A stretch of 64,000 nucleotides of DNA from Alkalidesulfovibrio alkalitolerans DSM 16529 (lineage in GTDB: Bacteria > Desulfobacterota > Desulfovibrionia > Desulfovibrionales > Desulfovibrionaceae): NCBI RefSeq assembly GCF_000422245.1, contig NZ_ATHI01000027.1, positions 124,001 to 188,000 of the forward strand, given 5' to 3'. Under the pieces are notes generated by a model, which saw only the letters and a program-made list of their open reading frames with translations, was not told where the DNA came from and made no database searches. Of this stretch, positions 25,983-29,699 are shown piece by piece. The translations under genes and the position numbers were made by a program. Position 1 is the stretch's first letter; every line of letters begins with the position of its first letter.

Positions 25983-26339
25983 ATGAATCTCGACGATCTT
26001 CCGGTGGTCGAACAGACGCGCAGTCTGGCCCGCGTGGGCGGCGACATGGAACTACTCCAGGAATTGTACGGAGTGTTCGCCTCGGTGGCTCCGGAGCGGA
26101 TCATGGAGTTGCGCGAGGCCCTCGCTGCAGGGGAGACAAACGCCATCTGGCGCGCCGCCCATTCGCTCAAAGGCGAGTGCGGCGCGGTGGGCGCGGAACG
26201 CTGCCGCGAAGCCGCGGCACGCCTGGAAGACGCCGCGCGGGTCGGAGACCTGGTCTCGGCCAGATCGCTCCTGCCGCTCGTGGAACGAGGATTGGCCGAA
26301 GTTCTGGGCAGCCTCGCCCTGGGCCGCGTCGATATCTAG
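25983..26339 (+). CDS. HPt (histidine phosphotransfer) domain protein
   Basis: 118 residues, all helical. AAHSLKGECGAVGAE around residues 58-72 is the HPt motif with phospho-accepting His in HSLKG. A single HPt domain would relay phosphate between a hybrid kinase and a response regulator that are not next to it. It converges on the Fe-S selenoprotein gene, and their TAG stops overlap in CTAG at 26336-26339. The 200 bases upstream are AT-richer with a TTGACA at 25834 but lack a matching -10 box. Confidence 0.85.
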   Translation: MNLDDLPVVEQTRSLARVGGDMELLQELYGVFASVAPERIMELREALAAGETNAIWRAAHSLKGECGAVGAERCREAAARLEDAARVGDLVSARSLLPLVERGLAEVLGSLALGRVDI

Positions 26340-27577
26340 TCGTCCAGATCGACTGCCTCGGCCAGGTAGGCGCTCAAAAGCTCCACCTTGGCGTCGACCT
26401 CGTAGGTCTTGACCGCCTCCAGGATGCCGTCCTCGCAGTTGTGGCAGCCCACGACCACCATCCGCGCGCCCGTGGCCCGGATGCACTCGGCCTTGGCCTT
26501 GAGCGCCGCGAGCTTGGCCTGCTTGTACTCGGGCATCAAGGCCTGGCCGCCGCCGTTGCCGCAGCAGTAGGTGGCGTTGCCGTGCGGGTTCATCTCGCGG
26601 TAGTTGGCCGCGACCACGGCGAGGAGGTTTCTCGATTCCCTGAACAGCCCGGCGTTGCGGATGAAGTTGCACGAATCCTGGAAGGTCGAGGGTTCGGTGT
26701 GGAACCCCGGCTTGAGCTTGAGCGTACCCTTGGCCAGGCAGTCCGCCCAGACTTTCATGGGCGGCGTGGCCGTGAACGGGAGCTTCCTTCCCAACCAGTG
26801 TGGCGCCTCGAACCCGAGGGCCTTCATGGAGTGCCCTCACTCGGCCGTTATCAGCGCCTTGACGCGCAGGGCCTCGGCCGCCTCCACGACGTTCCTGGCG
26901 AGCGCCGTGGCCTTGGGCACGTCGCCCGCGAAGAGCCCGAGGTTCGTCGAGTCCCAGCCCTTGCTGGAAAGCGTGAAGTCGATGCCCGACGCGTTGTAGA
27001 GCTTGAGGTAGTTGTAGAGATTTTGCGGATAAAACTTGATGTCGCGGGGGTGGAAGGTCAGCAGGTACTCGGCCCCGGCCTTGTCCATGGGCGCCTCGGC
27101 CGAGGGCATCTCCTCGCGCAGTTCTTCAAGCTGCCATTCCACGGTCTCCAGGTACTCGTCCTCGGTCATGCCCAGGTTGTTGCCGAACTCAAGGGCGTTC
27201 TCCAGGCCCTTGGCCAGGCCCGGAGGCGTGAGCCCCATGGCCACGGCCACGCCGCGCGCGGCATGCACCAGCGGGGCGATGCCGATGCCATGCGGGCAGT
27301 ACATGGTGCAGCGCTGGCACATGGTGCAGGTGCCGTACCAGATGTCCCGAAACTCGGTCAGCAGTTCGGCATCCACCTTGCCGCGCTTGCGGTACAGGTC
27401 GAGCAGCGGCTGGATGCGGTAGGCCGGGACGTGCTCGGTCCTGGGGTTGGAGGCGTAGTAGTGGCAACCCTCGGCGCACAGCCCGCAACGCGAGCAGATG
27501 GAGAGCCACATTTCGAGCCTCGCGCTGGCCTTGGAGGCCAAGGCGCGGGAAAGCTTCGTCTTGTCGATGGTCGTCAT
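26336..27577 (-). CDS. HdrD/TmcB-like Fe-S protein with in-frame TGA, probable selenoprotein
   Basis: Read through one TGA (26837-26839, codon 247), this is a single 413-residue protein. N-terminal part: two 4Fe-4S motifs, C28xxCxxCxxxC38 and C84xxCxxCxxxCP. C-terminal part: a CCG domain, C303-X34-C338C339G-X38-C378xxC381. The TGA sits in ALITAE-TGA-GHSMKAL, where cysteine relatives have a conserved CGH after a short hydrophobic strand and TAE. Frame and spacing are undisturbed, and a SECIS-like hairpin follows, so Sec insertion is more likely than two genes or a mutation. Without Sec the products would be a 246-residue ferredoxin and a 163-residue CCG fragment starting at 26827. Role: takes electrons to or from the membrane cytochrome b next to it and probably acts on thiols/disulfides or DsrC-like partners, as inferred from the family. 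Confidence 0.82.
26802..26822 (-). promoter_or_regulatory. candidate bacterial SECIS element
   Basis: On the minus strand, bases 15-35 after the TGA form GGC-CCUCG-loop GGUU-CGAGG-(C bulge)-GCC. The stem has 8 pairs and the four-base loop begins with GG, then UU, as in the GGUCU-type loop of E. coli fdhF. The loop begins 22 bases after UGA, inside the usual window of about 16-37. The hairpin lies within the coding region, as bacterial SECIS elements must. Confidence 0.75.
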
Positions 27578-27599: not shown

Positions 27600-28262
27600 T
27601 CACCACGGCCCCACCTGCCGCTTGCCGAAATCGCTGCCCGTCGCCGCCCGCGAGACGAAGAACAGCGCCATGTGCGAAAGCTTGGTGAAGGGAATGGCGA
27701 TCAGCAGTGCGCAGGCGCTGGTCACGTGCAGGGTCAGCATGGTCGGGTAGTCGCCCCACTGCCGGTGCGCCGCAAGGCCCGTGACCAAAGGCAGGGCCAC
27801 GAGCGCGAGCACGATCAGGTCGCTTGGCCTGCTCAGCCCCTTGACCGGCGGATGAAAAAGCCGCCTGGCCGCGAGAAAGGCCACGGCCGCAATGGCCGTC
27901 ACGGTCAGGACGTCGGCCAGGGAATCGGAAATGGTCGGCCAGGAGAGGCCCCACCACTGCTCCACGAGCACCACGTGGCCGGAAAGGAAGAACGCGGTCA
28001 GAAGCAGCGGAACGTGCAGGGCGAACCCCGCCGCCGTGGTCCAGGGGCTGGTCCTGGCCGTGCGGTTCAGCGGCAGCAGGAAGCGCGCGATGGAGGCCAG
28101 GGCCCAGCCGGTGCGAAAATCAGGCGGCAGGTTCCGGGCGGCGAGCCTGGCCTTCTTGCGGTAGCGCCACAGGCGCAGCGCGAGGCCGATGATCAGGACG
28201 CCGAAGGCGGCGCGGGCCAGCGGCCCCACGGCGAATTCATAGAACTCGTGCATGGTGGTCAT
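27600..28262 (-). CDS. NarI/DsrM/TmcC-like cytochrome b membrane subunit
   Basis: 220 residues from the ATG at 28262, which overlaps the stop of the cytochrome gene (ATGA). Five or six hydrophobic segments: AAFGVLIIGLALRLW, GFALHVPLLLTAFFLSGHVVLV, LTVTAIAAVAFLAA, LIVLALVALPLVTGLA, TLHVTSACALLIAIPFTKLSHM. His residues near segment ends (LHVP, SGHVV, LHVT, KLSHM) could ligate two b hemes, as in NarI and DsrM. It should link periplasmic cytochrome c to the cytoplasmic Fe-S protein encoded next, moving electrons across the membrane or through menaquinone. Confidence 0.8.
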   Translation of the reverse strand: MTTMHEFYEFAVGPLARAAFGVLIIGLALRLWRYRKKARLAARNLPPDFRTGWALASIARFLLPLNRTARTSPWTTAAGFALHVPLLLTAFFLSGHVVLVEQWWGLSWPTISDSLADVLTVTAIAAVAFLAARRLFHPPVKGLSRPSDLIVLALVALPLVTGLAAHRQWGDYPTMLTLHVTSACALLIAIPFTKLSHMALFFVSRAATGSDFGKRQVGPW

Positions 28263-28690
28263 GGCTTGGCCTCCCCGCTGTCGCGCACGTGGCACTCGCC
28301 GCACATCACGGGCGCGGCGGGCGAGGCCACGCCCTTAGCCTCGTGGCAGCCCATGCACTGGCCGTGCATGGCGCGGCGCAGCCCGAGCCTGCCGCCGTCG
28401 GCCGCATCGTGGCAGGCCGAACAGGAGGTCTCCATGCCGAGTTCCCAGACGTTGGTCCCGTTCTCGTAGAAATGGTGGCAGTCGGTGCACTCGGCCCGAT
28501 CCATATGCTTCTCGTGCATGAAGAACACGCCGGGCCGCTGGCGCGGGGCAAAGGCCGGGTCGGCCAGGTACATGGTCTCGTCCTGGGCCGAGGCCAAAAG
28601 CGCGCCGCCCAGAAGGCAGGCCAGCGCCGCCAGGACGGCGGCCACGGTCCGTCCATACTGAAAACGTGCGCGGGGATATGTGCGTCTCAT
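28259..28690 (-). CDS. tetraheme cytochrome c3-type protein
   Basis: 143 residues from the ATG at 28690. An export signal ([24 protein letters not shown]) is followed by four heme-binding motifs: CTDCH, CSACH, CMGCH and CGECH, with extra His (FFMHEKH) for distal ligation. This is the size and heme number of class III cytochromes such as TmcA of sulfate reducers, which accept electrons from periplasmic hydrogenase or formate dehydrogenase. First gene of a three-gene operon with the membrane b subunit and the Fe-S selenoprotein. Gene order differs from the tmcABCD order I know and no tmcD-like gene follows. A longer upstream frame is rejected because it has no signal peptide at its start. Confidence 0.87.
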
Positions 28691-28889
28691 CTCGAAAGCG
28701 ACCTTGCAGGTTATGGTAAAGCCCCGGAGCAGCCTGTCCAGGGGGCAGCGGTCCACATACCCTACTCGCGTATGGCCCGCAATGGTCTCGACGGCGCAGC
28801 GCGGGAACATCCAAAAGCCAAGCATCGGGATTTCGCCCTGTACAGCGCCGCCCGCTCCGGGTAGAAAAGCCACCGCGAGGACACCGGCA

Positions 28890-29699
28890 ATGCTGTTTCA
28901 GCCCAACATAGACCCCGTGGCCGTGCAACTCGGCCCGCTAGCCATCCGCTGGTACGGCCTGATGTATCTGGTCGGCATCGGCGGCGGCTGGCTCCTTGGC
29001 CGCATGCGCGCCAAAAAGCCCGGCTCGCCCGTCACGCCCGCGCAGGTGGACGACCTGATCTGGTATCTGGCGCTTGGCGTGCTGCTCGGCGCGCGCGTGG
29101 GCTACATGCTCTTCTACGACTTCGCGGCCCTGTGGCAGGACCCCTTGCGGCTCTTCGCGGTCTGGCGGGGCGGCATGTCCTTCCACGGCGGCCTTCTGGG
29201 CACGGTGCTCGGCATGTGGTGGTTCGCCCGCAAGCACCGCGTCCCCTTCTTCGCGGTCACGGACTTCGTCTGCCCGCTCGCGCCCATCGGCATATTCTTC
29301 GGCCGCATCGGCAACTTCATCAACGGCGAACTCTGGGGACGGCCCACGGACCTGCCCTGGGGCGTGATCTTCCGCGACCCCCTGGCCGGGCTCATGCCGC
29401 GCCATCCCTCGCAGCTCTACGAGGCGGCGCTCGAAGGGCTGTTGCTCTTCGTGGTGCTGTGGTGGTGGTCGGCCAAGCCCAGGCCCATGAAGAGCGCCTC
29501 GGGCCTCTTCCTGATGATCTACGGCGCGTCGCGCTTCGCCGTGGAGTTCGTGCGCGAACCCGACGCGCACCTGGGCTATCTGGCTTTCGGCTGGCTGACC
29601 ATGGGCCAGGCTCTCTCCCTGCCCATGATCCTCTTCGGCCTGTGGCTGTGGCGCACGGCCCTGCCGCCCGCGTCCGCCCCGGCCGGCCGCAGGGGCTGA
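28890..29699 (+). CDS. lgt: prolipoprotein diacylglyceryl transferase
   Basis: 269 residues with about seven membrane spans. The Lgt signature [20 protein letters not shown] lies around residues 140-160 and is followed by RHPSQLYEA; an early IRWYGLMY and [11 protein letters not shown] are also family hallmarks. It transfers diacylglycerol from phosphatidylglycerol to the lipobox Cys of lipoprotein precursors in the inner membrane. Start is the ATG at 28890 (MLFQPNIDP...). It diverges from the cytochrome operon across about 200 bases. Confidence 0.95.

Follow-up and report, generated by a model that had tools for sequence, protein, structure and literature searches.

The window, a stretch of 64,000 nucleotides from a sulfate-reducing bacterium, carries on its minus strand a gene that opens with ATG at 27577, contains a single in-frame TGA at 26839–26837 (TCA on the plus strand) and closes with TAG at 26338–26336 (Table 1). 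The open frames 27577–26837 and 26827–26336 are the halves of one gene of 413 codons, with the TGA at codon 247 between them. This confirmed the initial annotation, which had placed a ferredoxin part and a CCG part in one frame separated by a single TGA. When the TGA is taken as a residue, a protein of 413 amino acids results (here the Sec protein, Sec standing for selenocysteine, U), in which residue 247 has the context ITAE-U-GHSMKAL. Pfam placed 4Fe–4S dicluster domains at residues 25–98 and one CCG domain at residues 298–382, and homology to a single ferredoxin and CCG protein extended across both halves of the split frame. Around the probable operon, the ends of an Hpt-domain gene (25983–26339) and of the Sec gene meet, while lgt (28809–29699) starts divergently from the cytochrome gene.

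Table 1. Features of the Sec gene and its upstream neighbours in the window.
Feature	Position	Strand	Basis
Selenoprotein gene (almost certain), 413 aa: two 4Fe–4S ferredoxin motifs (25–98), degenerate first CCG half with Sec247, complete CCG domain (298–382)	26336..27577	-	Frame and Pfam
In-frame TGA, codon 247, probably read as selenocysteine	26837..26839	-	Cys in 51/91 and TGA in 40/91 homologues; TGA in 18/18 orthologues
Putative bacterial SECIS hairpin, bases 15–35 after the TGA; loop GGUU at 26811–26814	26802..26822	-	Stem counts, covariation
NarI/TmcC-like membrane cytochrome b subunit, 220 aa, immediately upstream of the Sec gene	27600..28262	-	Pfam Nitrate_red_gam 31.4 bits; NCBIfam TmcC 204.1 (cut-off 240)
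Class III cytochrome c of TmcA-like type with four CxxCH; opens the probable operon	28259..28690	-	Pfam Cytochrom_CIII 52.7 bits; NCBIfam TmcA 96.2 (cut-off 114)

The window contains 63 same-frame pairs of open stretches (at least 120 codons each) split by one stop, 32 of them by TGA, so that the split pattern alone is no proof of recoding. When further TGA breaks among these 32 were inspected by eye (2401, 34851 and 54162 on the plus strand; 8166, 7443, 10544 and 27600 on the minus strand), none was selenoprotein-like. The split in the Sec gene is taken beyond chance by the single protein spanning both halves, the TGA kept in all orthologues, selection after the TGA and a covarying hairpin. 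In comparison with L002, one of 16 comparisons made, dN/dS was 0.116 downstream of the TGA and 0.103 upstream of it.

The conservation of the site was assessed at two depths. Of 348 genomes from the order that were searched with a profile of ten orthologues, 18 gave an orthologue of the Sec gene, and all 18 carry the TGA, which excludes the sequencing slip that the initial annotation had named as a way for its reading to fail. One of the 18 (G236) is a contig-end fragment with an additional in-frame TAG. Past the last complete orthologue the profile score falls from 738 to 406 bits. Among 395 genomes from across the phylum, 38 matches passed the cut, five with TGA (the window's own counted) and 33 without a stop. 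Both searches used a cut at E 1e-110, with at most five (348 genomes) and four (395 genomes) candidates scored per genome, so a distant Cys orthologue could have been missed. A search of genome contigs with the window protein gave six loci only.

The column of the site was then read in 91 aligned homologues, a non-random set made up of loci from the top of the search lists and 17 further stretches, and leaving out same-gene duplicates (L081–L087, L091 and L098), near copies (L102, L103 and L106) and matches without a locus. The codon was TGA in 40, TGC in 44 and TGT in 7, with no other codon, and the first 20 stop-free homologues fetched all had Cys in the context TE-C-GH. The earlier proposal that the TGA takes the place of a conserved Cys was thus borne out, with Cys in 51 of the 91 homologues and TGA in the other 40. 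A site that holds Cys or Sec only is probably a working part of the enzyme. One fragment with a second stop (L095) was counted among the 91 but dropped from the rows used for the tree (90), the hairpin (39 Sec) and the cluster ligands (90).

In the tree, the TGA genes were found in the window clade (17 complete rows, support 100/100), in a group of 12 with NTE-U-GH and in mixed Sec/Cys groups of eight and five. The 90-row tree requires five Sec/Cys changes, of which at least four are forced by well-supported branches. The window clade and L130, L134 and L135 are joined by long branches, and the sister group of the window clade is therefore unsure. The group of 12 Sec proteins (L048–L059; NTE-U-GHE) belongs to the same order, has stems of 7–9 pairs with the loop at base 24, and is probably the published GlpC type. 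In the mixed groups, Sec rows L060, L096, L097, L099, L100 and L128 stand beside Cys rows L114 and L118, and Sec rows L107, L109 and L112 beside Cys rows L110 and L111; these two small clades lend themselves well to asking which way Cys and Sec were exchanged. A further genome (G015) has two adjacent HdrD-like frames on contig C12 (480858–481934 and 482203–483279), one stop-free and one with a TGA.

Downstream of the TGA in the window, bases 15–22 pair with bases 27–31 and 33–35 around a GGUU loop (bases 23–26). The loop is separated from the TGA by 22 bases, the spacing and loop that had been reported before, and the hairpin is SECIS-like in lying shortly past the TGA with G at the start of its loop. 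Throughout the window clade bases 18–22 pair with 27–31, most rows adding pairs below, and a stem of at least five pairs was found at the same place in 17/17 complete orthologues; its lack in close relatives had been named beforehand as evidence against selenocysteine. Under a uniform rule applied to all rows (loop of 3–6 bases, starting at base 20–27, G in the first two positions), which was fixed only once the sequences were already known, stems of at least five pairs were present in 34 of 39 complete Sec genes compared to 5 of 51 Cys genes, and stems of at least four pairs in 39/39 compared to 8/51. The loop started at base 23 or 24 in all 39 complete Sec genes. The closing pair covaries with a synonymous Phe codon in all 17 orthologues, being G-C with TTC in eight and A-U with TTT in nine, six of these nine rows coming from one genus. 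At all their other Phe positions, the nine TTT genes use TTT in only 20 of 153 cases. Over 12 distinct rows, 91.7% of the cells were paired, compared to 87.0% in shuffles (0/500 reached 91.7%) and at most 51.0% when the pattern was slid. A second register of the hairpin fitted worse, with 77.4% of cells paired, and was rejected.

Some other measures speak against the hairpin. The lowest-energy fold of the 54-base stretch contained the hairpin in 10 of the 17 orthologues and a competing fold in seven (L007 and six rows from a single genus). On average, the stretch past the site folds with the same energy in Sec genes (−18.5) and Cys genes (−18.2), and the 8-codon windows with the least synonymous change lie outside the hairpin, in other parts of the gene. 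Rfam gave no match above threshold in the window or in 26700–26900. The Rfam model SECIS_1 matched neither the source genome nor any of 14 control genomes and was therefore uninformative here.

The genome encodes the selenocysteine machinery. The four genes whose presence had been proposed as a check were all found, each above its cut-off: selA (613.8 bits; cut-off 267.9), selB (389.7; 242.25), selC, the tRNA-Sec (88.8; 47), and selD (346.4; 125). The selD gene itself (L137) has one in-frame TGA, as does a formate-dehydrogenase-like frame of the same genome that scores below its family cut-off (L142), which makes more selenoproteins in this genome likely. From the computed frame, Sec site, hairpin and machinery, we infer the insertion of Sec: UGA codon 247 would be decoded by SelB and tRNA-Sec via the hairpin just downstream.

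Two explanations without selenocysteine were weighed against this reading. The locus might hold two separate genes, the first ending at the TGA and the second starting from an ATG four codons on. The ORF list does give the two frames as two ORFs, and the window as well as 7 of the 16 other complete orthologues have an ATG at codon +4. However, 9 of the 17 complete orthologues have no ATG, GTG or TTG at +4, and their first possible start lies 15–27 codons downstream, within the conserved domain. In the predicted structure the split would sever one continuous fold, and a site codon that is solely TGA or Cys across the 91 homologues also speaks against two genes, an arrangement that we regard as very improbable. 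A pseudogene or sequencing error, with a Cys codon mutated to or misread as TGA, would need a single base change from TGC or TGT at a site where Cys is found in 51 of 91 homologues, yet the 18 orthologues that share the TGA span different families of the order, dN/dS past the TGA is about as low as ahead of it and the hairpin is found in TGA genes while being mostly absent from Cys genes. This explanation is barely credible. Selenocysteine is the best reading of codon 247, as the initial annotation had held and as the tests set out there for its refutation favoured, and the 413-aa protein is almost certainly a selenoprotein.

The identity of the Sec protein was examined with NCBIfam models. 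It scored far below the cut-offs of HmcF (NF045711; 338.7 compared to 750), TmcB (NF045724; 283.5 compared to 735) and DsrK (NF045796; 179.9 compared to 400). A distinct TmcB (791.1 bits) and a distinct HmcF (866.5 bits) are also encoded in this genome; each exceeds its cut-off and carries Cys at the site. Assignment of the Sec protein to TmcB, HmcF or DsrK was ruled out on these grounds. The earlier label of HdrD/TmcB-like is consequently right in the wide sense, but the protein is not TmcB itself. With TmcB, HmcF and DsrK it shares full-length homology, two ferredoxin motifs, a degenerate first CCG half and a complete second CCG domain; at the aligned site, Cys is present in L063 and L062, whereas the window protein has Sec.

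The neighbouring genes resemble TmcA and TmcC, the partners in the Tmc complex, with scores close to, yet under, the family cut-offs (Table 1). All 17 complete orthologous loci, counting the window's own, have a NarI-like frame beside the Sec gene. Only five of them keep an intact cytochrome gene; it is split between frames in one, a remnant in one and not seen in the examined stretch in ten, so it is not a fixed part of the complex. The gene is split into two frames in L067 (G047), reduced to a one-motif remnant in L068 (G043) and complete with four heme motifs in the same-genus G077 (L080), which suggests that the gene is currently being lost. A second pair of NarI and HdrD-like genes, free of stops, faces the Sec operon tail to tail in three genomes from a single genus (L068, L069 and L070). 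Given the scores under the family cut-offs and the separate TmcB and HmcF in the genome, the Sec protein very likely belongs, as the soluble subunit, to a third complex resembling Tmc and Hmc.

To place the site in a fold, the protein was modeled by AlphaFold2 from 40 aligned rows (pLDDT 91.6, pTM 0.90). Of the solved folds, EtfD (9ojn) was nearest, with Z 28.4 over 376 aligned residues at 2.9 Å; the fold is also shared with HdrB, whose chains scored Z 20–21 (5odc_B, Z 20.3). Sequence alignment with EtfD (50 bits) placed U247, H249 and S250 on Cys581, His583 and Cys584. According to the available text on EtfD, cluster D1 is bound by Cys503, Cys538, Cys581 and Cys584, and the noncubane cluster D2 by Cys637, Cys672, Cys673, Cys709 and Cys712 together with His583 (PMC13083937). 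All six D2 ligands are kept in the Sec protein, as C303, C338, C339, C378, C381 and H249, each invariant in 90/90 rows, as are the eight ferredoxin cysteines. The GH of U247-G248-H249 is likewise present in 90/90 rows. In contrast, of the four D1 ligands only the Sec247 position is kept: the 17 rows of the window clade have P177, S210, U247 and, at the 250 column, S250 or its substitutes, so that only Sec remains. Over the 90 rows, the 210 column has Cys in nine, and the 177 and 250 columns have none among the residues listed. A full ligand set in both CCG halves, as for the two CCG-bound clusters of the HdrB type, was not found.

This alignment makes Sec247 the last among four ligand positions belonging to one HdrB/EtfD-type cluster. 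The initial annotation had put the Sec near the catalytic Fe–S site, a placement that rests on the alignment with EtfD. Most simply, the pattern can be read as the loss of one cluster, whose last ligand site has turned into a redox-active Cys or Sec beside the remaining noncubane cluster.

Taken as a whole, a selenoprotein in a Tmc/Hmc/Dsr-like complex, with Sec247 beside a noncubane cluster and acting on a thiol/disulfide partner, is in our judgment a highly probable explanation of the locus. Such a three-gene transmembrane redox complex would comprise the Sec protein as its cytoplasmic HdrD-like iron–sulfur subunit, a NarI/TmcC-like membrane cytochrome b and a periplasmic TmcA-like tetraheme cytochrome c. 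Electrons would most likely pass between the periplasmic cytochrome (or menaquinol where the cytochrome is lacking) and heme b, two cubane clusters and a single noncubane cluster, the last being the equivalent of EtfD D2 with Sec247 next to it. Sec247 would serve as a selenol acting on a thiol/disulfide partner, for which DsrC is the likeliest candidate. That suggestion draws by analogy on the Tmc and Dsr complexes, as covered in the available text of PMC10553843, and on dsrC, which was found in the genome together with dsrA. The gene neighbors and the cluster ligands are backed by computation; the direction of electron flow, the partner and the chemistry of Sec247 are inferred, and a role for this residue as the reactive one in disulfide chemistry has at best an even chance.

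Set against this is a selenoprotein in which Sec has a structural or electron-transfer role as a noncubane cluster ligand and is not a disulfide-reactive selenol, with perhaps an ETF-like flavoprotein or another carrier as the partner. In the closest solved relative, EtfD, the aligned region binds clusters, and the available text calls D2 non-catalytic owing to His583 and gives a flavoprotein as the partner of EtfD (PMC13083937). Because the aligned H249 is conserved, a purely electron-carrying or ligand role for Sec is a genuine, if somewhat doubtful, prospect. An ordinary D1 cluster is made unlikely by Sec being the last of the four aligned D1 positions, and the at least four to five Cys/Sec exchanges in the tree fit a redox-active residue. 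On the reading with a reactive selenol, sulfate reducers would have, besides Tmc and Hmc, a third transmembrane redox complex that depends on selenium. In it, a single Cys or Sec would have taken the place of one of the two noncubane clusters in the active site of heterodisulfide reductase and would carry out the disulfide chemistry. We advance this broader proposal only tentatively. If true, Sec/Cys exchange would mark the reactive residue that has long been sought for the TmcB/HmcF/DsrK family as a whole.

The reaction of TmcB, HmcF and DsrK at the catalytic cluster matters to sulfate respiration, and the exclusivity of Cys and Sec (91/91), together with at least four to five exchanges, singles out one testable residue in this family. 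Some Desulfovibrionales would have a selenium-dependent complex beside the Cys-type Tmc and Hmc, an enzyme that gene callers would overlook by breaking its gene in two.

Sec at UGH in Fe–S oxidoreductases is already in print. In the available text of their study, Zhang and Gladyshev describe a Sec-containing Fe–S oxidoreductase (GlpC) whose owners include Desulfovibrio vulgaris (PMC1794560), a 2026 review gives its motif as UGH in the portion available (PMC13188914), and a Desulfotalea case appears in the accessible part of PMC1914089. The Sec protein has this motif, in a CCG Fe–S oxidoreductase, as U247-G248-H249. A search of open-licence PMC papers returned no description of Sec in TmcB, HmcF, DsrK or a complex of the window type; the window protein adds a member to the known group, in a complex for which no report of Sec was found. 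Its likeness to the published protein, which is placed in Deltaproteobacteria including D. vulgaris and has WP_174406253.1 as its named example, is judged by the U-G-H motif. The published Sec Fe–S oxidoreductase also occurs, in the text available, in a glpC-hdrA-frhD-frhG-frhA operon, whereas the window gene lies with NarI-like and cytochrome c genes. Also comparable are the Sec-containing HdrD4 and HdrF2 named for Desulfobacterium autotrophicum in the accessible part of PMC2702500, which, compared by description, are HdrD-type selenoproteins with HdrC- and HdrB-like parts, as is the window protein. Unlike the window protein, HdrF2 is fused to a membrane part and adjoins glpAB.
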